A DNA stretch of 64,000 nt. Source: an uncultured Clostridia bacterium (GTDB lineage Bacteria; Bacillota; Clostridia; Oscillospirales; Acutalibacteraceae). Made by a program: the position numbers and the translations under genes. The notes under the pieces are model-generated. The model made no database searches, was not told the origin of the DNA, and saw only the letters and a program-made list of their open reading frames with translations. Location: contig CANPXK010000004.1 of the NCBI GenBank assembly GCA_947585965.1, positions 1 to 64,000 of the forward strand. Direction: 5' to 3'. Below, in pieces: positions 2,567-62,218 of the stretch (the first letter of the stretch is position 1; every line of letters starts with the position of its first letter).

Positions 2567-3601
2567 ATGGATTTTACCGGAAAAAGCTGCCCTGTATGTT
2601 CCAAACGCTTTGAGGCTGACGATGATATTGTTGTCTGCCCGAAATGCGGTGCACCTTACCACAGGGAATGCTATGAAATAAAAGGTGCTTGTATATTTTC
2701 CGAGCTTCATGAAAAAGGCGAAGTATGGCATGACATAAATCAGGAATCGGGTAGTAATACTACCGAGGAGAATAACGATGACTTGGTGGTATGCAGATAT
2801 TGCGGACATAAAAATTCTCCGGACAGTATTGTCTGTGAGAGATGCGGAAACTTCCTGTCTGCTCATGACGGCGGGGAGCAGGGGGATTATGGGTCCGATG
2901 ATGAAGGGGACGATGATCCGATGAGGATGTCATCGCCGGTTTTTCGTGCTAAAAAATTCTATATGGATGACATAAGGGATTTTGCTATCGGAATAAAGAA
3001 GGATGAGGATTTCGACGGTGTTACCGGCGAGGAGCTTATGAACTATGTCGGTACTAATGAGCTATATTACGGACCTGTTTTTTCCTCAATTAAAAAAAGG
3101 AATATGAGCAGATTCAACTTCTCGACACTGCTGTTTCAGGGTGTATGGTATTTTTATCGTAAGCAGTATTTGACAGGCATAATACTGAGTCTCCTGACGG
3201 TTTTGCCGCCAGTGGTGCAGTATTTTTGCTATTCGTATTTCAAAACTGATGAACTCTGGCTCACGGCTCAGGAAGCGGTCGCTTCCGGGGGATATGCTTC
3301 ATACAGAGATTATCTCGGATGGATATTTGCAAATTGTGATTTGATGCATGGTGTATTGATGCTTCTGCCTCTCGCACTTAGCTTTATTGGCTTTGCCGTT
3401 ACGATTGTGCTTGCGTTTTGCGCTAACAGAAACTACTATAAACGTGCAATAAAGAAAATAAAGTCCATAAAGACAAATAACAGTGATAAAAGTGAAAAGG
3501 AAATATTGGAGATTATAAGGAATAAAGGCGGTATAAATCAGGGACTGGGTATAATGATGCTTGTATGTGAATTGATTATTACCGTTGCCTTCACACTTTG
3601 A
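2567..3601 (+). CDS. Prokaryotic RING-finger-like / zinc-ribbon membrane protein (DUF2628-like)
   Basis: CPVC...CPKCGAPYHRECY RING-like cluster, second CRYCG...CERCG ribbon, C-terminal TMs. Confidence 0.7.
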   Translation: MDFTGKSCPVCSKRFEADDDIVVCPKCGAPYHRECYEIKGACIFSELHEKGEVWHDINQESGSNTTEENNDDLVVCRYCGHKNSPDSIVCERCGNFLSAHDGGEQGDYGSDDEGDDDPMRMSSPVFRAKKFYMDDIRDFAIGIKKDEDFDGVTGEELMNYVGTNELYYGPVFSSIKKRNMSRFNFSTLLFQGVWYFYRKQYLTGIILSLLTVLPPVVQYFCYSYFKTDELWLTAQEAVASGGYASYRDYLGWIFANCDLMHGVLMLLPLALSFIGFAVTIVLAFCANRNYYKRAIKKIKSIKTNNSDKSEKEILEIIRNKGGINQGLGIMMLVCELIITVAFTL

Positions 3602-46584: not shown

Positions 46585-47865
46585 ATGAAAAAATTTTTTT
46601 CCATGCTTCTGATTTTTGCGATGGCATTATCCTTCGCTGCCTGCGATGACAAGAAAGATAAACAAGAGGAATATGATGAAAATGCAATTACGATCATGGG
46701 AAAGAAGAGCGATCTTGCTAAAAGCTACATGACAAACATATTTGAACGGTACAAAGAATCTACGGGAAAAAATATAAACATCATTTCCATTGATGACTCG
46801 GATTACGAGACCGAAGCTGAAAGGCGATTTTCCGATGGGGAGACTCCGGATATCTTTATGCATTTCCATAATGCGGATCTCAACCGTTTTGATGTTGATA
46901 ATAATTTCTGTTATCTCAATGATGAGAATTGGGTGGGGGATCTTACGGACAGTGCCCGTTCCTATTGTACGGATGAAAAAGGTAATCTGCTCGGACTTCC
47001 ATATTGGGAGAGTTCGGTTTCGGGATGTTATTATAACAAAACACTATTTGACAGTCTTGGTCTGAAGCCCGCATCAACACAAGCAGAGTTTGATGCGTTA
47101 TGTCAGACACTTAGTGAAATCGGATATACACCTATATGCTGGCCCGCAGACGGATGTTCATGGATGATGCAGTTTGGTCTTGATCCCGTTTTTGCAGATG
47201 ATCCGTCAATACTCAGAAAGATAAATAATAATGAGATAAATTACTCTGACATTCCGCAGGTTGAAAATATGTTCAAGTGGATATCGGATGCTGCGGAAAA
47301 GGGTTGGTTCGGTGACAAATACCTCGAAACAGGAATGGAAGATATCAGTGATATAATGGGTTCGGGGGAGGCTGTAATGGTTTTTATATGGGACACATGG
47401 TTCTATACGGATCTCAAAGAGGGCAATGAATATTATGTGGATGATTTTGCCCTTATGCCTGTGTTTATGAATACTGTAGAAAACGGTACCTATGAGGGCG
47501 GAAATCTTAATATGATGATGGTGAATAAAAACAGCGATAAGAAGGAAGAAGCTTTGGATTTCCTTGAATTCTGTGCTGCTGAGGAAAACTACAATGCGGC
47601 TTTTGACGGAATTTCAACCGTAAGTTGTTTCAAAGGTCAGACAACAAATATTCAATCAGAGATGGTGACAGATGCAAGTGCATCAATAGCAAAGTGTGAG
47701 CGTGTATCTACTGCTGCAACGAGAATAATCGGCTACAGTGCCGATGAGGTTGCCTCGGCACTCAATAAGCTGTTCAAAAAGGAAATAAATGTATCCGAGT
47801 GTATTGACCTGATGGATAAATATCGTACAAAGGAGGCTGAAGCACAGGGAATTGAGGGCTTCTGA
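46585..47865 (+). CDS. Extracellular solute-binding protein (family 1, sugar-type) lipoprotein
   Basis: Lipobox-like ALSFAACDD; SBP_bac_1-like fold signatures (GLPYWESSVSGCYYNKTLFDSLGLKP). Confidence 0.85.
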   Translation: MKKFFSMLLIFAMALSFAACDDKKDKQEEYDENAITIMGKKSDLAKSYMTNIFERYKESTGKNINIISIDDSDYETEAERRFSDGETPDIFMHFHNADLNRFDVDNNFCYLNDENWVGDLTDSARSYCTDEKGNLLGLPYWESSVSGCYYNKTLFDSLGLKPASTQAEFDALCQTLSEIGYTPICWPADGCSWMMQFGLDPVFADDPSILRKINNNEINYSDIPQVENMFKWISDAAEKGWFGDKYLETGMEDISDIMGSGEAVMVFIWDTWFYTDLKEGNEYYVDDFALMPVFMNTVENGTYEGGNLNMMMVNKNSDKKEEALDFLEFCAAEENYNAAFDGISTVSCFKGQTTNIQSEMVTDASASIAKCERVSTAATRIIGYSADEVASALNKLFKKEINVSECIDLMDKYRTKEAEAQGIEGF

Positions 47866-48130
47866 AAAATTCAACGGTGCGGCGGACAATCAATGTATGT
47901 ATAAAGGGCTGGGGATTGAGTCTGTACTGCATAATCATGGGTTCCCGTATACTTTTCCGGAAATCGCTGCCGTTTTTTCTTGATATATCAGTATATGTAT
48001 GATAAAATTAAATCGTCGGACCGGAGAAAATGATGTTTTTATGAGATACTGTAATGCCGGTTGGAAATACTGATTTTCGTGGAATAAGAGAGGAAGGTGT
48101 TTATTATATTTAAAGTATATAATCAGCGGT

Positions 48131-48334
48131 TTGTATAATAATTACAGATATTTGTTGGGTTCCGATAAAATTACAACACAGGAAATGAATAAATACCATG
48201 ACATTTTTAATGAAAAACAGCAGCCGCAGAAATTACGGAATAGCATTTTCAAAAAGTTACATGGTAAAAAAGACGGAATATTAAATCTACATACTACATT
48301 GAAAAATTATCAAGGTTATCTGAAAGGAGAATAA
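48131..48334 (+). CDS. Small hypothetical protein upstream of the NYN gene
   Basis: ORF ending 2 bp before the next start; basic, 67 aa. Confidence 0.4.
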   Translation: MYNNYRYLLGSDKITTQEMNKYHDIFNEKQQPQKLRNSIFKKLHGKKDGILNLHTTLKNYQGYLKGE

Positions 48335-48336
48335 TT

Positions 48337-49662
48337 ATGGGCAGATATACAAAAAGTATCGTATCTACAGTGGCATACATGATCGGGATCAAAAAACATA
48401 TTATTGAGGAAATTTGTTCTGATGAGTATGAGGATCTGAGTAAATTATATGAAAATAAAAATGCTACAATTATAAGGTATTTATGTAAGTTGAGGACAAG
48501 CCTGATGCTGAATTTCAAAAAAACCGATCAGGAGATGAAATATAATGTTACTAATATTGATAAGCTCCCTTGGTTTGACAGTGAAAATATAAAGCTGCTT
48601 ACGGATTGGGGAATTGATATTATTAAGTTAAACTATACAGCGGCAAAGTATATTGTATTATTCAATAAAATTATAAGTGAACAAATCGGAAACTGTCGGG
48701 AGTTGTTTCCGGAGTGGGTTAATTGGGAATATATAAAGGATATATTCGTTATTCCGAGATTCAATAATGAAAAGGTTACAAAAAATGAGTTCACTACGTA
48801 TATGGAGTTTATTCAGTGGTATCCTTATCAGTCGTATATACACTGGAAGCCCGGAGATTACGGTAATATACTGTATAATGACGGTAAATTTCTGAAAATT
48901 ATTTATGAACAGCATAATGATACCTTTGTCGGGAAATCCAACTATATTGATGCCGATGAAGAGATTAAGGAACGGATATATCAGTTTATAGACAGTTCCG
49001 AGGGGGTGGAGATTGTTGTTGATTGCGAAAACTCTAACCCATATAAACTGTGCGGCGTTTTGACAAGTCTTGACAGCGAAGTTGTTGCAAAAATCAAAAA
49101 GCTTATATTGTTTGATGATGTACATACAAACCCGGGTTGGGATCTGGTTGAAAGATTTATCAAAATACCCGTTCAGCATATCATGGTTGAGCGTGTCAAA
49201 GAGCAAAAATCACTTGTGGATATCAAAATGACGGCTACGGTATGCACCGAGCACTATAATAACAAAATATCTTCATTTATTTTGCTGTCAAGTGATTCTG
49301 ATTATTGGGGGTTGATATCATCACTGCAAACTGCGAAATTTCTTGTCATGTTTGAATACTCGAAGGTAAGCGAGGCGATAAGAAGAACACTTTCCGAACA
49401 TTCCGTATATCACTGTTCGATTGATGATTTCTGCGTTGGAAAAATTGACGAATTTAAACGTTTTGTTCTCTTTAATATTCTGAAAAAATATCTTCCGAAT
49501 ATCCTTGAATACAACGGCAGGGAGCTGGTGAGCAGAATATATGAAGAAGCAAGAATTTCTGCTGATCATTCGGAGCTGGACGGATTTTATAAAAAATATA
49601 TACAGACGTTGAAATTTACGGCGGATGATGAGGGAAATTTAGGTCTTGAGATAAATAAATAG
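48337..49662 (+). CDS. NYN/PIN-like (DUF88-type) domain protein
   Basis: IVVDCENSNPYK ... SSFILLSSDSDYWGLISSL acidic motifs. Confidence 0.6.
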   Translation: MGRYTKSIVSTVAYMIGIKKHIIEEICSDEYEDLSKLYENKNATIIRYLCKLRTSLMLNFKKTDQEMKYNVTNIDKLPWFDSENIKLLTDWGIDIIKLNYTAAKYIVLFNKIISEQIGNCRELFPEWVNWEYIKDIFVIPRFNNEKVTKNEFTTYMEFIQWYPYQSYIHWKPGDYGNILYNDGKFLKIIYEQHNDTFVGKSNYIDADEEIKERIYQFIDSSEGVEIVVDCENSNPYKLCGVLTSLDSEVVAKIKKLILFDDVHTNPGWDLVERFIKIPVQHIMVERVKEQKSLVDIKMTATVCTEHYNNKISSFILLSSDSDYWGLISSLQTAKFLVMFEYSKVSEAIRRTLSEHSVYHCSIDDFCVGKIDEFKRFVLFNILKKYLPNILEYNGRELVSRIYEEARISADHSELDGFYKKYIQTLKFTADDEGNLGLEINK

Positions 49663-49689
49663 TATTAATTAATCGGGTTCCGGGTTGAG

Positions 49690-49722
49690 TTATGATACTT
49701 GACCCGGAGTCTGTTTTTTTTA
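49690..49722 (+). terminator. Intrinsic terminator
   Basis: TCCGGGT...ACCCGGA followed by GTCTGTTTTTTTT. Confidence 0.75.
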
Positions 49723-49800
49723 TACGGAAAATTATCCCTCGTATACAAATAGGGTTTAGTAAAGTACTGATTGTTAGTAATATATTATAAATAACAACTG

Positions 49801-49836
49801 CTCCCCCGAAAATGTTTTTGTTGGGGAGATTTTTAC
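49801..49836. terminator. Hairpin CTCCCC...GGGGAG + ATTTTT
   Basis: Seen directly; no gene clearly ends just upstream. Confidence 0.5.
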
Positions 49837-50081
49837 CGTTCAGTACAAATTTTATACAGATAACTCCATAGGGTATTGAAAAAAATTGATTTTAGCCGTA
49901 ATATAACATAAAATGGAGTTGCCAAAAATTATTACATTCGTAAAAAAGGCGGTGATTGCGATGTACACATTTGACAGCATGGTCAACCGACAAATAAAAT
50001 AAGTATATGACTTGTGCGGTTGGCAATTTTAAATTCCGGTCGGATTGGTTGTTTTTGAATTTGTGAAAGGAGATGTCTTAC

Positions 50082-53000
50082 ATGAAAGCTAAGAAGATAT
50101 TATCGTTTATACTTGTTGCGGCAATGATGTTATCGGTGTTGGTAATGCCTGTGGCGGCAGTGGAGGAAAATGAAGTTGTTGTGCATTATTATAATGAAAA
50201 CAACTGGGAAAACCCGTATATTTACTATTACAATGACGGCAATACACCGGTAAATTGACCGGGCGTTGCTATGAAAAATGATGGTGATAACTGGTACAGT
50301 TATACAATAAGTAATTTTGCCTCCGTGAAGGTGATTTTCAGCAATAACGGAGCGGATCAGTATCCCGGACAGAATGAAGAAGGTCTTACCGTTTCGGGTG
50401 AAAAATGGTATAAATCGGGGAACTTTTACAATCAGAATCCCGACCTGTCAAAAATAACTGTGCATTACTATAATGCAAACGGTTGGAGCAAACCGCATAT
50501 TTATTATTATACGGACAGTGCCAATCCCGTGACATGGTCCGGCGTTGCAATGACTTCGGACGGCAACGGCCGGTATTCGTATGATATTTACGGTTATGAC
50601 AGTGCAAAGGTGATTTTCAGCGACAACGGAAACAATCAGGATCCTGCACAGAATGAGTCGGGATATGATGTAAGCGGAGAAAAGTGGTACATAAACGGTC
50701 GGCTTTACGATAGTGAGCCGGACGGAATTACCGTACATTTCTACAATTATGATAATTGGAGCAATGTAAACATATATTATTACAGTGATGAAATTACAGG
50801 TTCCGATTGGACGGGTGTACCCATGTTTGCCGATGGTGACGGTTGGTACACATACAAAATCTACGGCTTAGAGGAAGCAAAGGTACTTTTCAATAACGGT
50901 GCCGGTATTCAGATACCGGGTGTTATGGAAAAAGGTTTCACGGTTTCTGATGAGATGTGGTACAGAAACGGAACATGGACAAAGGAGCGTCCGGAGGAAA
51001 TAACCGTATATTTCTATAAGCCGGACAACTGGTCGGTACCGAACATTTACTATTATCTCAATGATAATGATACAGGCCCTGTATGGCCGGGCGAGGCTAT
51101 GGTTAAGTTAAGTGATGATGAAACTATTGCCAACTGGTATATGTACACTATAACCAAATATTCCTCTGCTAAGGTTATGTTTAATGATGGAAATAACCAA
51201 ATCCCGGGACAGAACGAGCCGGGTCTTGACGCAAGCGGAATAATGTGGTATAAAGATGGTATATGGTGTGACAGTGAAACTGATACGGACGGAGACGAAC
51301 TGCCGGATTACGGTGAGTTGGTTCTTGGCACGGATATCAACAAGACCGATACTGACGGGGATCTTTTGCCTGACGGATATGAAGTGAATACACTTGGCAC
51401 AGATCCGACAAAAGCCGACAGTGACGATAATAATGTGAGTGATTCGGATGAGGATGCGGACAAGGATAAACTCACTAATTATGAAGAATATAAAAATGGG
51501 ACAAATCCTATTCTTGAAGATACGGATGATGATAATCTTAGTGACTATGATGAGCTTAACACCTACGGAACAGAGCCGACAAAGCCTGATACGGACGGTG
51601 ACGGGGCAAGTGACGGTTGGGAAATCGAGAACGGCTTTGACCCATTGACATACAATGATAAATTTTATGTTGAGTCTGAATGCACAGACAAAGATAATAG
51701 TTTATCTGCAAAGGTCACAGGATCATTGAGCGGAGAGCAGGCTGAATTTTTATCAAGCGAATTTCAGGACGATACATTCAATATAAATTCGACCATTCCC
51801 GGATATATTGGAAAGGCAGTTGAGCTTACAACAGAGGGTGAGGTTGACAGTGCAGTATTATCATTTACATTCGATGAAAATTTATTGAATGATAAAGATT
51901 TCATTCCGGTGATTTACTACTACAACGAAGAAACACAGCTTCTCGAAGAGCTTGAAACAAGCGTGGAGGGGAATATTGCAACGGCACAGCTCGAACATTT
52001 CTCGACCTATATACTGCTTAATAAAACTAAATTCGAGGAGGTTTGGAACACAGATATAAAGGCTCCCGATGAAGATGGTACCGGTGTTAAGAATTTGAGG
52101 ATTGCCTTTGTGGTAGATTGTTCCAGCAGCATGAGCGGCTCAAAATTAAATACAACAAAGGAAGTATTGAAATCGTTTGCCGATGTTTTAGGTGATGATG
52201 ATGAATTTTCTATGATAAAATTTGAGTATAGTTCATCAGTTGTTTGTGGGTTGACAAAAGATAAAAATTTGTTGAGGAATTCTATTGACAGTTTGTATGC
52301 AAGGGGTGGCACTGCCATTTATACAGGAATTGATGAGGCAATACAGATGTTGGTGCCGGTCAAAGATAAGAATTATCAAAATACAATAATAGTTATAACT
52401 GATGGCTTTGATGAACCTCACACAACGTATGAGAACCAATATTCATCATTAGTAAATACTGCAAATGAGAATGATATAACCATTTATGCGGTTGGCATAG
52501 GAAGTGTTGACAAATCAATCCTAACAAAGGTAACAGAAAATACAAACGGTAAATATTATCATGCAGATGATGTTTCGGATTTAGAAGAAAATTTTGAAAA
52601 TGTAAAAGAAGAAACAATTGACTATAATACCGATTCAAATAGTGATGGTATATCCGATTATTATACCAAGAAGCTTATAAGCGGTGAGCTGCGGTATGGT
52701 TCCGGCGCTAAAACGTATGTATTTACAGTACCGGAGGAAAATAGTCAAAGACCTGCAACTTATGAAGAAGTACAGGGAAATAATGACTTTGATGGTGACG
52801 GGCTTAAAAACGGAGATGAGGTAAGCGTTCTGGTAGAAAAACCATATAACAGACCTTATCTTTGGGTCAAATCTTTCCCGGATAGTGAGGATAGTGATGG
52901 AGATATTGTGCAGGATTGTTGTGACGAAAATCCTATACATAGTGATTATACAGGATTAAAATCTAATTATATTTCTGTAAAATATGGTAGTTGGGACAGC

Positions 53001-53753
53001 TATGGTGGCGATCAGGGTAAATTCACTGAGAATGGAGCTTTTTTTAATTATGGTTGCGGCTTGATTGCATTTACCGACATAGTACTTTACTTGTTGATAA
53101 ATAATGAAACATTTGTTAATAAAGATTTGTTGAACGAATTATATTCGGTAGGGGGGATTGCTGAAGGAGGTGCGTTAAATCGAGAGTCTTATTACCAAAT
53201 ATTAGAAAAATTCAATGAAATGTTTTTTAAGATTAAAAATCATGGTGTTCCCATAAATGATCTTATTAACGGATTTAATGACTTGTCAAGTCTTTATGAT
53301 TGGAATCTGTCAGCCGAATGGAATGGTAATATACATCCGAATGAATATCTTAAACCTGAGATAATAGAATCTCAGTTAAAAATGGATATACCTATGGTGT
53401 TAAATATAGCTTCGGATTATAAAAATGAGTATAACTACCCAAATAATTGTGGTCCGGAATTGAGTGTGAAATTATATTTAACAAGATTACCTCATTTTTG
53501 TGGTAAGGAGTATGCAGTAAGTTCAGTTCCAGTGAGTAAACATTATGTTGTGATTACAGGAATTATAAGAAATGGTTCTGATATTTGGTTGGAAGTATCT
53601 AGCAATGGTGTAAAGAATTATATCAACTATAATGATTATTTGTATTATACCAAGTATCAGTACGAGTTGCCAAAATTCTTTTTACTGAACAGAGATTATA
53701 AATATGAAAATAACATACTGATATTGAAAGAAATTAAGCGTAGTTATTTTTAA
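50082..53753 (+). pseudogene. Large secreted protein (CBM26-like repeats, TSP3 repeats, VWA domain, C39-like peptidase) interrupted by in-frame TGA at codon of a conserved Trp
   Basis: ORFs 50073-50258 and 50271-53753 are in the same frame; PVN*PGVAM versus PVTWSGVAM in the next repeat; DCSSSMSG VWA MIDAS; GCGLIAFTD / HYVVITG C39-like. Confidence 0.75.
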
Positions 53754-53764
53754 GCAAAGGGTGA

Positions 53765-54580
53765 ATGGATATGCCAAAAAAAAATAAAAAGAAAATATTA
53801 AAAACTGTATTATTTATCTTGGCATGTATACCTGCTGCAATATTAATAATCAATTACATATTGGACACAGAGGACAGAAATTTCAGGAATTATGTTTATT
53901 CTGGAATGTCGAAGCTTTACGATAATGTTGAGTTTGAAGAAATAAAAATATTTCCGCGAGAAGAAGATCCTGCTCATTATGAGTTATTAATACGCTTTAC
54001 TGCCGGTTACCCTGTTAATACAAATGATAGTTATGGTGATATCGTATATGATGATTCTATGAAAGATATAAAAGCCATGGCAGATCTCTGGAAAATTTGT
54101 ATGGATTATATAGAGAAGAACAAAGAAAGTAAATTTTCTGAAGTATCTTCGATTATGTTATCCGGAGCAGGAGACAGGAGATATAATGTTGCTGTATTTG
54201 ATGCACAATACGATGAAAAATTCAGAGTTAGTGAGGATGATGTTTTATTCAAAAACAATGATAATAAATTGGACAAACTCACTTTAAACTATGCCTTGCC
54301 TCCTTATGTGCCAATGGATGCTCTGCTCATATATTTTTCTGATTGCAAGCAGATTGATGTATTTTTGATAGACGGATCGAATCCGGAAGAGGTCTATAAT
54401 AGTTGCCGTTTTGATGAATTTGAAAATCTGAAATGTCTTAGTTTTCAGATAGAGTCACCGGATTATAGTGATGATTATTGGTATGATGAGGAAGAACGTC
54501 AGAAATTATTGGATATAATAAAAGGACAGCTTTCTCCGGATTGTCGTTTAGTCTGGTATGATGAACTTATAATAAAATAA
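53765..54580 (+). CDS. Hypothetical membrane-anchored protein
   Basis: N-terminal TM; RBS-linked directly to the upstream gene. Confidence 0.6.
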   Translation: MDMPKKNKKKILKTVLFILACIPAAILIINYILDTEDRNFRNYVYSGMSKLYDNVEFEEIKIFPREEDPAHYELLIRFTAGYPVNTNDSYGDIVYDDSMKDIKAMADLWKICMDYIEKNKESKFSEVSSIMLSGAGDRRYNVAVFDAQYDEKFRVSEDDVLFKNNDNKLDKLTLNYALPPYVPMDALLIYFSDCKQIDVFLIDGSNPEEVYNSCRFDEFENLKCLSFQIESPDYSDDYWYDEEERQKLLDIIKGQLSPDCRLVWYDELIIK

Positions 54581-54602
54581 TAAAATGGTAAAACATATCC
54601 GG

Positions 54603-54627
54603 GTGGGGATGCCGCCAACATCCCCAC
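54603..54627 (+). terminator. Hairpin GTGGGGATG-7-CATCCCCAC
   Basis: 9-bp perfect stem. Confidence 0.5.
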
Positions 54628-54690
54628 ATTGCTTTGGCAAGAAAGAAAAATGTTGATGAAATACAGAAACAAATATTGACATTTGCTAAA

Positions 54691-54806
54691 TAATGTGGTA
54701 TAAAGATGGTATATGGTGTGACAGTGAAACGGACACGGACGGAGACGAGCTGCCGGATTGCGGCGAGTTGGTTCTCGGCACGGATATCAACAAGACCGAT
54801 ACTGAC
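54691..54806 (+). pseudogene. 116-bp fragment of a paralogue of the CBM/TSP3/VWA gene
   Basis: About 110/116 identical by eye to 51241-51356. Confidence 0.85.
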
Positions 54807-54895
54807 TATAAATAGAATTTTCGCATATTTTTCCGATCTTGTTGTGTCCGGTTTTGTTATAAGTTTTATAGATTTATTGTGAGGAAGTGTTAAAT

Positions 54896-55489
54896 ATGTC
54901 GGAAATTATTAAAAATGGTACTGTAAATTATGATATGGATTACATTAATGAACGGAGGAAAGCATCTATACTAATGTCTATTGCGGACATTTTATTGGCA
55001 ATACAGGCACTTTGTTTATTAATTTGGGTGTTATGCGGGCTGATTCATGTTTTTATAGTTGACTCCGATATACCAACCTATCAGCTTATCTGTATGATTA
55101 TTGCATTACTCGGTGTGAGTATTGTGATACCTCTTTGTATAGTGTTTTTATACGGAAAGATTTTGAGTTGTATTGTATCTAAACATGATATTAATAACAG
55201 AAATATCATTAAGGTAAAATTAAAGTCAAACGAATACAGTGCAAAATACATTGATTCAATGTCCAGTTTTAAGAAGAAGAATGATAGTTATGATGTTTGT
55301 GTTACTATACGTATGAGAAAGGATAATGATAAACCTATACCAAAGCATTTCTTATTCAACACTGTCGTTCTTGCCGGTGCAATTCGGAAAAACAAAATAG
55401 TTTATTATCATCATGAAACAATAATAGTAACATATTTGAAAGATTCAAAATTTATTATTGATGTTTCAAGCTTAAATCTTGACGACTGA
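54896..55489 (+). CDS. Hypothetical two-TM protein
   Basis: Two TM helices then soluble domain; RBS present. Confidence 0.55.
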   Translation: MSEIIKNGTVNYDMDYINERRKASILMSIADILLAIQALCLLIWVLCGLIHVFIVDSDIPTYQLICMIIALLGVSIVIPLCIVFLYGKILSCIVSKHDINNRNIIKVKLKSNEYSAKYIDSMSSFKKKNDSYDVCVTIRMRKDNDKPIPKHFLFNTVVLAGAIRKNKIVYYHHETIIVTYLKDSKFIIDVSSLNLDD

Positions 55490-55614
55490 CCTTGGGTAAG
55501 TATATAGAGATGCGGGATATATTGCTTCCATGACAATACATATGGATACCTTCTGCAAGAATTAAAACTACAAATTTTAGTAGTCTATTCAGATTTTTTC
55601 ACTGCTGACACGAT

Positions 55615-55860
55615 TCAATATTCGAGTATCGTTATGATGATGTTGTACCGAGCGTGTCGGCAGTAATGCATGGTGAGCAGGCAGAAAACCTTGGTATTGA
55701 GCAGATTACGGATAATCAGTGCTATGTCAATAAGAGAACCGGACTTGTTGTAAATTTTGAGTCCGAAAAAGGGAGGAGAAGCGTCCTTCCTGAATTATGT
55801 AGACACGTATTTAGAGTTTCTATATTACATATCGCAGGGAAAACGAGAAAGTTGAGATAA
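55615..55860 (+). pseudogene. Truncated protein fragment, unknown family
   Basis: Open frame extends upstream of any good start (FEYRYDDVVPSVSAVMHGEQAENLGIEQITDNQCYV...). Confidence 0.4.
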
Positions 55861-55888
55861 TAGTTCATAGTAAGAAAGTGGTGAAATT

Positions 55889-56557
55889 ATGGAGATCAAA
55901 AAGATTTTTCGTATAATATTAATAGTAGTTTTGGGACTTCTGATTTTATTTACTGTTCTGATTGTACTGCTCATAGCAACACCCTTGCCATACTATCTTA
56001 CTTCAACTGTAGGTAGCATAGAATCAATATTAGAGGACAGGTATAATATTGATTTTGAGTTTATCGGTTCTGAATTCAAAGATTTGCCTGATTATGAGGT
56101 AGATCCAATTAAGCCCAACTTTTTAAGGGTTAAAGTGAATGGGAAGAATTCAAAGGTTTATTATTTCAGACCGGTAGGAAATGAAGAAATTACCATAACA
56201 ACAACGTATGGGATTGCTGAGAATAATATGATCGCTCCTCTTCAGTACAGTGAGTGGGTCTGGGACGATTACGAGCTTGTGCTGAAGCAATACCTGGAAA
56301 AAGAAGAAAAACAACTTATCGGTGATTTCAATTCCTTAAATCTCGTTGTGACAGAAAATAATATTACGGAAATAGCCGAAAAAATATACAAACTGCAGGA
56401 TACGATTTGTAAGGAATATTCAAAATATGGGATAGAACGTGAGGGACACAAATATATTGCCAGGCTTCATATTAAAACGGATAAATTTGATGGGTATATT
56501 ACATTCTCTGATCACGATAAAAGCAAAATATTGAAGTATCTTGGTGATAATCTTTAG
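55889..56557 (+). CDS. Hypothetical membrane-anchored protein
   Basis: N-terminal TM; RBS; complete ORF. Confidence 0.6.
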   Translation: MEIKKIFRIILIVVLGLLILFTVLIVLLIATPLPYYLTSTVGSIESILEDRYNIDFEFIGSEFKDLPDYEVDPIKPNFLRVKVNGKNSKVYYFRPVGNEEITITTTYGIAENNMIAPLQYSEWVWDDYELVLKQYLEKEEKQLIGDFNSLNLVVTENNITEIAEKIYKLQDTICKEYSKYGIEREGHKYIARLHIKTDKFDGYITFSDHDKSKILKYLGDNL

Positions 56558-56789
56558 GGCAACACCGAATAAATCAAGAAATAATAAGAAACAAAAAGAA
56601 AACACCCGGCAAATAATCCGAGTGAGCAATAAGTATCCTGTGGTTGTTTGTCAAGCGGCAAAGCAAGATTTTATTTATTTTTATTCAGGGGTAGTACCCT
56701 GAAACGGGTAGTCATTATATAAAATCGTTGCCGTTCTCCAATCTGGTAACAGAGAAGAGGCGTGCAGATATGTCCCTCTTAGTATCCTT

Positions 56790-56842
56790 CATTATGCACA
56801 ACATACAACGGTTGCAGTTCGCACATACCCATATATTGAGAG
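56790..56842 (+). CRISPR. Degenerate orphan copy of the tracr anti-repeat/first-repeat junction
   Basis: About 38/53 identical to 59522-59574; repeat part GTTGCAGTTCGCACATACCCATATATTGAGAG 23/32 to array repeat. Confidence 0.55.
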
Positions 56843-56853
56843 ACGAAGGGCAA

Positions 56854-58044
56854 TCATAATATTGGGCGAAAAAAATCGAGGTGACTGGATTCGAACCAGC
56901 GGCCTCTACGTCCCGACACATAATTATCAAATTTGTTTATACTGTATATCATAGTCTGCTCCCTAAGTTCTGTGTAGATTTTCAGTGTTGTTTGAATATC
57001 AGCATGCCCCATTAATTTACTTGCTGTCATTATGTCGACACCCGAATTATATAACATTGTGGCATATGTATGCCTAAGCATATGAGGTCTAATTTTTTCA
57101 ATAATCTGCGGAGTTTTTTTAGGTGTATATTTTGTATCCAACTTTGAATTACCGAAAATTCTGTTAAGATCAAATATATATGAATTCCAAAGACTTCTCC
57201 ACGAACTTGGGCTTTGCATAGTTCCGTCCCTCTTAGGACAAACAATTAGTGAACTGCTGGTTTGATAGTAAGTGTTAAGATCGTTTAAAATTAAATCCGG
57301 TATGCTTACTGTCCTCGATTTCCCGTTCTTAGTTGACTGTTTGATTTCGAATTTATTTGGTGCTGTTTTAATAGCATTTTTATTTATATTAACGAGTTTA
57401 TTTTTGAAATCAATGTCACTCCATTTTAAAGCAATTAACTCTCCAGCCCTTAAACCACAGAACATCATTAGTAAACAACCACAACGTAATCTATGGGGCA
57501 TATCATAAATCCATTTTTGTTCCTGTTCGTTTAGGGCTCTCACAGTTGTTTTTGGTGCGTTCTTCGGTATTTTTATTTCCATAGCAGGATTTTTTATATA
57601 CCCATCGCAATTCATAATGGCATAGTTAAAAATAGACTTTACTACATTACGTATTTCCTTGAGATATGCCTTGGACATAGGTTTTCCTGTATTTGGATTT
57701 AAGTTTCCCCTCTCGATAATGATATCATCAAGGTTCATAAGTTTGATTTTATTGATAGGCAAATTTCCGATGAATGAATATATATGTGCAAGTTGACTTT
57801 CAATGGTGATTTGTCGACCATATGCTAATCCAATTATATTTCTTTTCTTCCACCTCTCGCCCCATTCACTAAATGTAGAATTTTCGTTTAAAATTTCCAT
57901 AAAATTCAATCTCCTTTTCCTGAAAGCCTTTCCGAGATAATTTGGATTGGCTTTTTTATTTGCAGATTGTATTCTACAAAAAAGAAAGAAAATTGTCAAT
58001 AAGCATAAATTATTTTCTGTTATTTCAATATTTTTATTGAACAT
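56854..58044 (-). CDS. int: Tyrosine-type site-specific integrase
   Basis: MFCGLRAGELIALKWSDID; RPHMLRHTYATMLYNSGV; LMGHADIQTTLKIY; C-terminus GRWFESSHL reads through the tRNA fragment. Confidence 0.92.
   Translation of the reverse strand: MFNKNIEITENNLCLLTIFFLFCRIQSANKKANPNYLGKAFRKRRLNFMEILNENSTFSEWGERWKKRNIIGLAYGRQITIESQLAHIYSFIGNLPINKIKLMNLDDIIIERGNLNPNTGKPMSKAYLKEIRNVVKSIFNYAIMNCDGYIKNPAMEIKIPKNAPKTTVRALNEQEQKWIYDMPHRLRCGCLLMMFCGLRAGELIALKWSDIDFKNKLVNINKNAIKTAPNKFEIKQSTKNGKSRTVSIPDLILNDLNTYYQTSSSLIVCPKRDGTMQSPSSWRSLWNSYIFDLNRIFGNSKLDTKYTPKKTPQIIEKIRPHMLRHTYATMLYNSGVDIMTASKLMGHADIQTTLKIYTELREQTMIYSINKFDNYVSGRRGRWFESSHLDFFRPIL
56876..56917 (-). other. tRNA 3'-half fragment (Pro-CGG-like), probable ICE attachment site
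   Basis: Minus strand ...CGGGACGTAGAGGCC GCTGG TTCGAAT CCAGT CACCTCG A fits canonical tRNA positions 33-73; sits inside the integrase 3' end. Confidence 0.75.
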
Positions 58045-58090: not shown

Positions 58091-59413
58091 TTGATAAAAG
58101 TAGTAAAAATTCCCTTAATTTATGCGGAAGAAAGAAATCAAGAGGATCTTGATTATAAGAAAGTCAATGAGATTTTGTGGCAGCTGCAAAGGCAGACACG
58201 CAGTATAAAAAACAAGGTTATACAGCTTTGCTGGGAATACAGTGGCTTTGCAAGCGACTATAAACAGAAAAATAACGAATATCCAAATGAAAAGGATGTT
58301 ATAGGAATGTCCCTGAGAGGATACACATATAAGGCTGTTTCCGGCAGCGGTGAATATGACCTGTATAGTGTAAATATGTCCGCTACTACAGATAAGGCAT
58401 ATAAAGAGTTCAATAACTCCAAAGGTGAGATGTTTAAAGGAAACCGTTCAATCATCAACTACAATGGTGACCAACCTTTAGAATTATCAAAACAATCAAT
58501 ATACATATTCAGCTCGGATGAGGAGTACAAGAACTTTTATATAAATATCAAACTTTTTAATAGAAAAGCTAAAGAAAAGTTTAATTTATCGGAACTGCAC
58601 TTGTGCTTTAAGGCTTTTGTCAAGGATAAGTCCACACGCTGTATATTGGAGCGATGTATTGCCGGTGAATATGCAATAGCCGGAAGTCTGATGAAGTATA
58701 ACAGGAATAAGAAAATGTGGCAGCTGAACCTCGTCTATGATTTTCCGGCTTCAAAGATTAGTAAAAACGGCAAAAAAATATTTCTTGAAGGTGATAAGAT
58801 ACTCGGAGTATTCCTTGATTACACACACCCGATATGTGCATCTGTTTACGGTGACAGTAACAGCTTCATCGTTGATGGTGATGAAATAGAAAATTTCCGA
58901 AGAAAGACAGAGCAGCGTAGAAGATCCCTACTCCGACAAGCTAAATACTGTGGTGACGGCAGAATAGGTCACGGTATAAAAACAAGAAACCGTCCTGCAT
59001 ATAAAATTGAAGACAAAATCGCACGATTTCGTGATACCTGCAATCATAAATACAGTAGGGCATTAGTCGAATATGCTGTTAAAAATAATTGTTCTGTCAT
59101 ACAGATGGAAAATCTGACCGGTGTATCAACAGATAATAAATTCCTTAAGAACTGGAGTTATTACGACTTACAGACTAAAATAGAACAGAAAGCAAACGAA
59201 TACGGTATAACCGTAAAATATTTAAAACCGACTTATCTGACAAGACGGTGCAGCTCTTGCGGCACTATTGACAAAGAACAGGAATTGACGGAATATTTCA
59301 TATGTCCTGATTGCGGAAAGAAAATGACTGCATTTTATAATGCAAGTCAAAATATTGCTATCGCAAAAATAGATGAGATTATAAAAAAATCTTTGGAAAA
59401 GTCTGAAAATTAA
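58091..59413 (+). CDS. Cas12f1-like (type V-F) effector with apparently inactivated RuvC
   Basis: CGDGRIGHGIKTRNRPAYKIEDKIARFRDTCNHKYSRALVEYAVKNNC, QMENLTG, CSSCG...CPDCG zinc ribbon, YNASQNIA; adjacent array; TTG start after AAAGGAAG. Confidence 0.88.
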   Translation: MIKVVKIPLIYAEERNQEDLDYKKVNEILWQLQRQTRSIKNKVIQLCWEYSGFASDYKQKNNEYPNEKDVIGMSLRGYTYKAVSGSGEYDLYSVNMSATTDKAYKEFNNSKGEMFKGNRSIINYNGDQPLELSKQSIYIFSSDEEYKNFYINIKLFNRKAKEKFNLSELHLCFKAFVKDKSTRCILERCIAGEYAIAGSLMKYNRNKKMWQLNLVYDFPASKISKNGKKIFLEGDKILGVFLDYTHPICASVYGDSNSFIVDGDEIENFRRKTEQRRRSLLRQAKYCGDGRIGHGIKTRNRPAYKIEDKIARFRDTCNHKYSRALVEYAVKNNCSVIQMENLTGVSTDNKFLKNWSYYDLQTKIEQKANEYGITVKYLKPTYLTRRCSSCGTIDKEQELTEYFICPDCGKKMTAFYNASQNIAIAKIDEIIKKSLEKSEN

Positions 59414-59420
59414 ATTAATT

Positions 59421-59542
59421 ATGGGGCGACTCGGCGTCCAAAAATCGAGATCAGTATGAGTAATTCCCTTCCTGAAGGGTTTCAGATACACTCGGTGAGG
59501 TATAAACTGCATACACTCAAGCCGTATGCACAATATGTAGCG
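59421..59542 (+). ncRNA. Candidate tracrRNA between effector and array
   Basis: Hairpins GGGCG/CGTCC (59424-59439), CCCTTC/GAAGGG (59466-59479), GCATAC/GTATGC (59509-59529); long-range ATCGAG (59444-59449)/CTCGGT (59491-59496); anti-repeat CACAATATGTAG (59529-59540). Confidence 0.65.
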
Positions 59543-59836
59543 GTTGCAACTCGTATATGTCTATATGTTGCGAGAAGAGCAAGTTGTTTGTAAGTTGTTT
59601 TGCTCTTACGTTGCAACTCGTATATGTCTATATGTTGCGAGATAATGGAGGCGAAGACTAAATGGCTGTTTATCGATTGCAACTCGCATATGTCTATATG
59701 TTGCGAGGTTTAATAGTATCTTGTGAGATAAGCATTAACCGTTGCAACTCGTATATGCTATATGTTGCGAGGAGATAAACGAAAGACCGATACCGGTAAA
59801 ACTGGTTGCAACTCGTATATGTCTATATATTGCGAG
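59543..59836 (+). CRISPR. CRISPR array, 5 repeats (32 nt; one 31 nt) and 4 spacers (35, 34, 33, 33 nt)
   Basis: Repeat GTTGCAACTCGTATATGTCTATATGTTGCGAG at 59543, 59610, 59676, 59741, 59805; eroded remnants at about 59841-59872 and 59898-59912. Confidence 0.93.
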
Positions 59837-59921
59837 CTGTAATAATATATAAATATACCTATATATTGCAAGCAAGACACGATACAATCTGTTATAAGTT
59901 GCAATTCGTATAATAAATAAC

Positions 59922-59985: not shown

Positions 59986-60780
59986 ATGAAAAAAGCAAAA
60001 ATCATTGCCGTTGCCAATCAAAAAGGCGGCGTAGCAAAAACAACGACCGTAATTAATATCGGTGCAGGACTTGCACTAAAAGACAAAAAGGTGCTGCTCG
60101 TTGACACGGACAATCAGTCCCACCTCTCCCGTTTTTTGGGCTACGATGGTACGGACGGCAATCCCACAATTTCAGAACTGATTTTTCAGACTGTATCAAA
60201 GGTTAAGAAGCCTGTGTCAGAAGCTATCCGTAAGTCTGAGCTTGGTGTTGATTATATCCCGTCTAACTTTATGTTGGCAGGAATTATCTCCATTCTCGGC
60301 ACAGACAGCGATAGTACGGGAGTATTCAGCCGTCTTTTCTCTGACGGTACTTTCGATAAATATGATTATATCATTATCGACTGTCCCCCAACACTTGATC
60401 TGCTCGTTTCCAATGCCCTTAAAGCCTGTGACAAGGTGCTTATCCCTGTGCAGTCTGACTATTGGGCTTATGAGGGTGTGGATCAGCTGCTTGCTACACT
60501 GCAAAGAGTTAAGCAAACAAATGACATTAAGCCTTATGTACTCGGAATGCTCGTTACAATGTTCAACAAGCGTACAAATTCGGCAAAGGCAATTATGGAA
60601 GCAATGAATGAAAGCTATGGCAGCTTTGTCTTTGAAAATGCGATTGCTTTTCGTGATGAAGTCAAAGTTGCTACTATTGAACACAAAAGCCTTGTCGGCA
60701 AAAAGAGCAGTGTAACAGGACAGCAGTATATGGCTGTTGTTGACGAGATCATCGGTAAGGAGGGACAGGTAAATGGCTAA
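59986..60780 (+). CDS. parA: ParA/Soj-family partition ATPase
   Basis: NQKGGVAKTTTVINIGAGLA deviant Walker A; IIIDCPPTLDLL. Confidence 0.95.
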   Translation: MKKAKIIAVANQKGGVAKTTTVINIGAGLALKDKKVLLVDTDNQSHLSRFLGYDGTDGNPTISELIFQTVSKVKKPVSEAIRKSELGVDYIPSNFMLAGIISILGTDSDSTGVFSRLFSDGTFDKYDYIIIDCPPTLDLLVSNALKACDKVLIPVQSDYWAYEGVDQLLATLQRVKQTNDIKPYVLGMLVTMFNKRTNSAKAIMEAMNESYGSFVFENAIAFRDEVKVATIEHKSLVGKKSSVTGQQYMAVVDEIIGKEGQVNG

Positions 60781-62218
60781 AAAATTGAGTATTCCTAAAC
60801 AGCAGTTTCCTACAAGCGTTGCGGACGCTTATAGTAATTTGCTCGGAGTAAAGTCTGATAATCAGTATGTAAATATTTCTCTTTCTCTGCTCGATGAGAT
60901 AGAAGATCAGCCATTCCCGATAAATGAGGATAAGGTTGCTCAGATTGCCGACAGTATTGAAGCAGTCGGGGTTATAGAACCGCTTATAGTTGTCAAGAAC
61001 GGAGAAAGATATCATATCCTTTCGGGACGGCACCGTTTCCGAGCCTGCCGTCAGCTCGGCAAGGAGGAAGTACCGTGCTTTGTCAGAGAAATGAATATAA
61101 CTGATCCGGAAGCCCGCTATATTCTGCTTGCAACCAACACCGACCGAAACAATGAATATACACCTACGGTTTATGCCCGTGCTTATTCGGAACAGCTTGA
61201 GCTTTTGAGGAAACTCGGCAGGAAGTCAACTGTATCGGCAATAGCCGAGCAGAATGGTATGAGCCGCAAGCAGATATATCGTTATATCCGACTTACAAAC
61301 CTCATACCGGATATTCAAAAATTGGTTGATAAAGGTGCAATCAGTATAGAAGCAGCCGTCGAACTTTCTTTTCTGTCAGAAAAGAAGCAGCTTGCTTTTT
61401 TTGATTACATTAACAGCATTGGTATGGATGATAGTGCTATTTCAAAGCACTTTAAAGTGTATGTAACAAAAAATATACATACAATTGCTGATGCGTTGAG
61501 TGACGAAGAATTTGGTAAAAACATTGATATGATTGTGTTCGGTAAGTCCGCGGTATCGGATGAAAAGGAGCAAAAAGACGAAAACTCAGATACAAGTGAA
61601 ATATCAGGAATTGTATCTGAATCTCCCGAAAATATATCTCAACCGGATGCCAAAATCCCGACAGAGAAGAAAAAGAAAACCGAACGCAGCAAAACACCAA
61701 CACCGGAAGATACCGGGGAACAGGGACTTAAAGTCCCGGATTTACAGACCGATAGCGAAGAATTGGCATTGCCGGAAGAGTTGGAAGAGGAAGAAGCAGA
61801 AGAAACATTTGTGGAAAATCTGAAATGGGCAGACGAAGAACACGAGTATTACTATTCTTTGTTCTGTAGCCGCATGGAATACTTGGATGAGTACCATAGG
61901 GCGGTTGCGTATCTTCTTGCATTGGACGAAAACATCAGAAATCACGTTTCGGACGTGTTTGATTTTGATAGAGATGTCATAATTCTTGAAGGTATTGATA
62001 TGGCATGGCAGACCGGCACAAGTAAGAAAGTAACACGGTTAGCATTTAACCTATGGGACGGCTGCTGCTCAGACGGTGAAAAATACATATCCGGGGAGGG
62101 CTATGAATTAGAACTGCCGAGTGCGTATTACACTCCAAGTTCTATTTTCTGTTGCAATTATGCACCATACTTTTGGGAGGCAATTAAGCTCCGTTACCCA
62201 TGTTACATAGATGATTAA
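60773..62218 (+). CDS. parB: ParB/Spo0J-like protein
   Basis: Ser/Arg-box region SGRHRFRACRQLGKEEVPCFV; HTH MSRKQIYRYIRL; overlaps parA. Confidence 0.9.
   Translation: MAKKLSIPKQQFPTSVADAYSNLLGVKSDNQYVNISLSLLDEIEDQPFPINEDKVAQIADSIEAVGVIEPLIVVKNGERYHILSGRHRFRACRQLGKEEVPCFVREMNITDPEARYILLATNTDRNNEYTPTVYARAYSEQLELLRKLGRKSTVSAIAEQNGMSRKQIYRYIRLTNLIPDIQKLVDKGAISIEAAVELSFLSEKKQLAFFDYINSIGMDDSAISKHFKVYVTKNIHTIADALSDEEFGKNIDMIVFGKSAVSDEKEQKDENSDTSEISGIVSESPENISQPDAKIPTEKKKKTERSKTPTPEDTGEQGLKVPDLQTDSEELALPEELEEEEAEETFVENLKWADEEHEYYYSLFCSRMEYLDEYHRAVAYLLALDENIRNHVSDVFDFDRDVIILEGIDMAWQTGTSKKVTRLAFNLWDGCCSDGEKYISGEGYELELPSAYYTPSSIFCCNYAPYFWEAIKLRYPCYIDD

Follow-up and report, generated by a model that had tools for sequence, protein, structure and literature searches.

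In the 64,000-nt window analysed here (an uncultured Clostridia bacterium of the Acutalibacteraceae, contig CANPXK010000004.1), a Cas12f1 effector that has lost two catalytic aspartates is encoded next to a tracrRNA and a short CRISPR array. The reading that best accounts for the sequence data, and which we consider probable, is a binding-only RNA-guided silencing system used in conflicts among mobile elements, possibly also controlling host genes. In such a system, crRNAs of the array would guide a type V-F1 effector that is nuclease-dead by nature and is carried by an integrative element, and the tracrRNA would join the first repeat in cis, giving a naturally occurring RNA akin to a single guide. 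In complex with this RNA, dCas12f would bind DNA beside a YTN-like 5' PAM and block transcription or another process without cutting. Its targets would be control points of rival elements (an integrase start, an excisionase-like gene, tRNA-adjacent elements) together with some host genes, and dispersed tracr+repeat units that lie at tRNA genes and lack an effector would supply further guides acting in trans. Expression, complex formation in trans and repression by the dead-Cas12f system are what we infer from the sequence; a selected cut-free guided binder whose targets lie at control points and have PAM-like flanks fits transcriptional or replicative blocking, as reported for Cas12m.

The effector

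The effector (58091-59413, + strand) has 440 aa and was identified as Cas12f by PADLOC (1.6e-110). PDB chains of AsCas12f and OsCas12f match it at about 1e-90, and its AlphaFold (AF2) model, with a pLDDT of 83, has AsCas12f 8dzj as best fold match; by sequence and modelled fold, the protein is Cas12f1 of type V-F. It does not have the intact RuvC D-E-D nuclease of this type: two of the three catalytic residues are lost, D being replaced by F at 241 and 415 (F241, F415), and E340 is kept, whereas the live homologues in the alignment retain all three, which bears out the original prediction of a dead effector. The dead clade contains five sequences from five species and is monophyletic (support 100/99). 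The other four proteins covering the active site show F/F, F/F, F/F and T/H at the same two positions, so the changes do not stem from an assembly error in a single genome; of the L043 protein (97%) only an N-terminal fragment is present, and the active site lies outside it. Pairwise dN/dS in the dead clade, where measurable, ranges between 0.05 and 0.14, indicating that the dead effector is maintained by selection, and the protein seems to have no DNA-cutting ability yet to be kept. No Cas12f relatives were confirmed in IMG/VR.

Guide RNA and CRISPR array

The array had been placed directly downstream of the effector. It is downstream, about 130 nt away, and a tracrRNA (59423-59542, + strand) lies between them; this tracrRNA was missing from the original prediction, as was the relic of a second unit described below. 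The tracrRNA and the first repeat form a 152-nt module (59423-59574, + strand), supported by alignment, covariation and a covariance model (CM). The module aligns without gaps over 152 nt in eight units, and its CM hit at R1 scores 176 bits. The antirepeat, at about 59531-59540, pairs in cis with the 3' half of R1, and the five-helix fold that includes this antirepeat-repeat helix shows 18 double-change cells (0/500 shuffles). No Rfam family matches the tracr+repeat unit; a tracrRNA with an antirepeat accompanying a CRISPR array is the layout of type V-F.

Sequence inspection, a repeat scan and fuzzy matching place an array at 59543-59836 (+ strand) that has five repeats, four spacers and the repeat changes described originally. 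The repeats are R1 (59543-59574), R2 (59610-59641), R3 (59676-59707, two substitutions), R4 (59741-59771, a 1-nt deletion) and R5 (59805-59836, one substitution), with start-to-start distances of 67, 66, 65, and 64; the spacers, on the same strand, are S1 (59575-59609, 35 nt), S2 (59642-59675, 34 nt), S3 (59708-59740, 33 nt) and S4 (59772-59804, 33 nt). The repeat scan also found degenerate repeat remnants after R5 (59837-59914, + strand), which include two half-repeats at about 59853-59873 and 59893-59914. The description of a short, drifted array holds across the clade: mean repeat identity within arrays is 0.87-0.96 in the dead clade, with the exception of one two-repeat array at 1.0, vs 0.97-1.0 in live relatives. 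The proposal of a static array is not supported. The window, L030 and L031 loci, whose effectors are 96-97% identical (dS 0.15-0.26), have no spacer in common, hence spacer turnover outpaces synonymous-site change in the effector. Elsewhere in the clade, L032 shows tandem tracr+array units behind a single dead effector (2627-3230), with spacers down to 16 and 20 nt, and in L031 a repeat-rich ORF, leucine-rich-repeat-like by eye, is inserted between the array and parA (1600-2500).

In line with the reported absence of local adaptation genes, a search for Cas1 found none on the contig of the window; cas1 genes are present elsewhere in the same assembly, and most genomes checked for Cas1 encode it elsewhere. 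Contig G000:C78 (L098) carries a CRISPR array of at least 55 repeats, I-C-like by eye, with a cas1 gene. The start of its repeat (GTCGCACCTCGCAT) partly resembles the dead-clade repeats (GTTGCACCTCGCAT), a likeness seen by eye only, which suggests that dead-clade arrays may take up spacers in trans through a system of this type; TTC is not uniform among the target flanks.

The mobile element

The gene order of the element is integrase, effector, tracr/array, parA and parB. The tyrosine integrase (56854-58044, - strand; PF00589, 6e-28) is divergent from the effector, L030, L032, L033 and L043 have a homologue in the corresponding position, and the C-terminus of the integrase overlaps a 3' fragment of tRNA-Pro(CGG) on the attachment-site side of the element (56877-56914, - strand, end coordinate by eye). 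The fragment matches the intact tRNA-Pro gene, which sits on contig G000:C26, exactly over 28 nt (56877-56904; ARAGORN was run on L102). Just outside the attachment site, blastn and the CM detected the relic of a second tracr+repeat unit (56793-56846, + strand), 98.5% identical over 68 bp to the unit adjoining the intact tRNA-Pro. The ParA partition ATPase (59986-60780, + strand; AAA_31, 4e-47) is directly downstream of the array and is followed by a ParB-like partition protein (60773-62218, + strand; ParB_N, 1e-12); tblastn showed the unit-parA-parB order retained in L032 and L143.

Contig G049:C60 begins at a unit and continues with parA, parB, and genes for a DUF6017 protein, SSB, NikA/MobC and a relaxase. 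MobC and relaxase downstream of parAB were seen only on this contig, which ends at the unit; the window element presumably has a similar backbone and is probably integrative and mobilizable. Identity between the element and L030, a contig of G021, is 96%, vs about 81% for the neighbouring chromosomal genes, which fits horizontal transfer. A stretch of about 9 kb (47865-56873), encoding an NYN-domain protein, a CBM26/VWA surface protein and others, is absent from the matching place in G021 and separates the flanking chromosomal genes from the element.

Units without an effector

The guide repertoire is wider than the window array, with tracr+repeat+guide units that lack a nearby effector elsewhere in the genome. 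The covariance model found such orphan units in all five dead-effector genomes, almost all of them metagenome assemblies in which contig membership could be wrong, and in two of the 59 other genomes of the genus that were covered (G062 and G037), neither of which yielded an effector. The chance probability of this overlap is 2.8e-6 among 64 genomes, with relatedness ignored. Where a genome has live Cas12f, the unit linked to the effector is the only one seen. Most orphan units are located 20-180 nt from the 3' end of a tRNA gene (Pro, Arg, Glu, Tyr) and face it, several are preceded by a sigma70-like promoter (TTGACA-17-TA(G/A)AAT), and some are truncated. In the L143 and L144 units, a 4-nt loop joins the antirepeat to the 3' half of the repeat in an sgRNA-like arrangement; compared with shuffles, the stability of their folds as a whole is not strongly raised. 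From this distribution a dispersed network can be proposed tentatively, as a possibility we rate below an even chance: one mobile-element dead Cas12f, programmed in trans by single-guide RNA genes at several tRNA loci, might control rivals, toxin-like neighbours and host surface-protein genes.

Targets of the guides

Targets were found for one of the four window spacers. S2 matches 33/34 positions in G373, with a CTC flank, and 31/34 in G062, where it covers both the ribosome-binding site and the start codon of a gene for a tyrosine integrase. This gene belongs to another element, which carries DUF6017, MobC and relaxase genes. In a sister array, S2 of L033 matches 32/33 positions in an HTH_17 excisionase-like gene. 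The suggestion of anti-MGE or regulatory targets is supported. Window S1 weakly resembles a conserved tRNA-adjacent element (3/200 shuffles), and no target was found for S3 and S4. Host genes are also matched: S2 of L030 agrees at 34/35 positions with a gene of its own genome (G021) that encodes a surface protein of 1321 aa, a 23-nt guide on G049:C60 falls, with one mismatch, within a homologue of that gene, and orphan guide O4 matches miaB of the same genome (33/35). Guides of G021 show near-perfect or perfect self-matches; such host-gene matches, and some of the self-matches, may be accidents left unpurged by a non-cutting effector. Homologous large surface-protein genes (CarboxypepD_reg, DUF11) at L078:7951-11916 and L168:2283-5843 are each matched by a guide of their own genome.

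In the flanks of the ten spacers with targets, T is found at -2 in 9/10 and Y at -3 in 9/10, a motif defined post hoc, and the repeat end (GAG) does not show this pattern. The 5' PAM inferred after the fact from these ten would be close to YTN. No spacer matched GenBank phages or PLSDB plasmids, no exact spacer core was found in IMG/VR, and a comparison with the own element, which could have indicated autoregulation, gave no convincing match.

Orphan guides O2, O3, O6, O8 and O9 all match one conserved tRNA-adjacent element (0/200 shuffles each), O3 perfectly and in the same genome. At L140:2486-2663 and homologous places in L136, L137, L138 and L142, this type of element shows two perfect facing sigma70-like promoters and, on the minus strand, a small hydrophobic ORF; it is possibly a type I toxin-antitoxin. 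A CreTA-like addiction, in which guides repress small toxin-like genes in tRNA-adjacent elements and loss of the effector or guide frees toxicity, so that the element is retained, would account for these five guides, for several matches in the vicinity of a small hydrophobic ORF where convergent promoters overlap, and for ectopic, degenerate repeats, a CreTA hallmark (PMC9458426). We nevertheless regard it as improbable: the guides fit their own copy of the element less well than other copies, the small ORFs vary between copies, lack a family assignment and are only putatively toxic, and window S2-S4 miss the element altogether, with S1 matching it at the weak level given above.

Alternative explanations

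Decay of a CRISPR-Cas system, with the nuclease lost and the array and units left as functionless remnants, is less probable still. Repeat drift, the degenerate repeats after R5 and the truncated units are what it would produce, but the low dN/dS on the dead protein, a guide RNA with compensatory changes, the turnover of spacers and PAM-like flanks are not. A Cas12k-like role, in which the dead effector directs the neighbouring integrase to integration sites by RNA guidance, would suit the position of the effector, which, in those dead loci that show this side, adjoins the integrase and is divergent from it, and the location of units near tRNA attachment sites; however, among the guides tested none had a match to a tRNA gene or an attachment site, and the integrase, which uses a tRNA-Pro site, is a tyrosine recombinase of the ordinary kind, making this role very unlikely. 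Cutting through a non-canonical active site, or action on RNA, is the least likely of all, since both RuvC aspartates are changed to Phe, Thr or His and self-matching spacers are tolerated, although the RuvC-II glutamate and the zinc ribbon are retained.

If silencing by binding is correct, nature would have its own version of CRISPR interference, built on a Cas12f that is under selection and does not cut and on guides that are fused naturally and spread across the genome, some of which resemble engineered sgRNAs. The system yields concrete target predictions, such as the integrase start matched by window S2, and is relevant to the conversion of class 2 effectors into regulators and to competition among mobile elements.

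Comparison with known systems

Among the closest known systems, those of type V-F1 Cas12f (AsCas12f and OsCas12f, formerly V-U3) are alike in fold and sequence (about 1e-90), tracrRNA layout and 32-nt repeats. A T-containing 5' PAM may be a further likeness, given the post hoc motif with T at -2 described here; that of OsCas12f1 is 5'-YTTH (PMC10090079). The system described here differs from them in the loss of two catalytic aspartates, in the close fusion of the tracr to the first repeat and in the orphan units in trans.

Cas12m (type V-M) protects against MGEs by silencing, through binding without cleavage (PMC10442227, PMC11013384). It is a different protein family, in which inactivity arose separately; the best matches of the window effector are Cas12f and Cas12m is only distant, so the effector is not placed in that family. 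Cas12m is not known to be accompanied by scattered tracr-guide units. PDB 9n9c, a natural dCas12f with a sigma factor, is alike in being a naturally dead Cas12f and is distant in sequence from the window effector (5.5e-16). No sigma-factor gene was seen beside the latter, whose neighbours are the integrase, ParA and ParB.

TldR proteins are TnpB-derived nuclease-dead repressors on phage, and the genes they can repress include host surface genes, flagellin for example (PMC13418256). They are likewise nuclease-dead and borne on mobile elements, and the host-gene matches reported here recall them; however, TldR belongs to the TnpB lineage with its own gRNA and lacks a CRISPR array, while the present system is of the Cas12f1 lineage with a tracrRNA, a CRISPR array and many guides. 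Finally, CreTA, CreR, scaRNA and tracr-L use ectopic repeats or natural single guides for repression (PMC9458426, PMC12737573, PMC11417352). These repurpose active effectors near their own locus, whereas the dispersed units described here would serve a dead effector. CreTA employs type I Cascade and its guide matches the promoter of the adjacent toxin RNA; in contrast, the present units carry a Cas12f-type tracr+repeat and their guides match other copies of the toxin-like element, their own copy not clearly.
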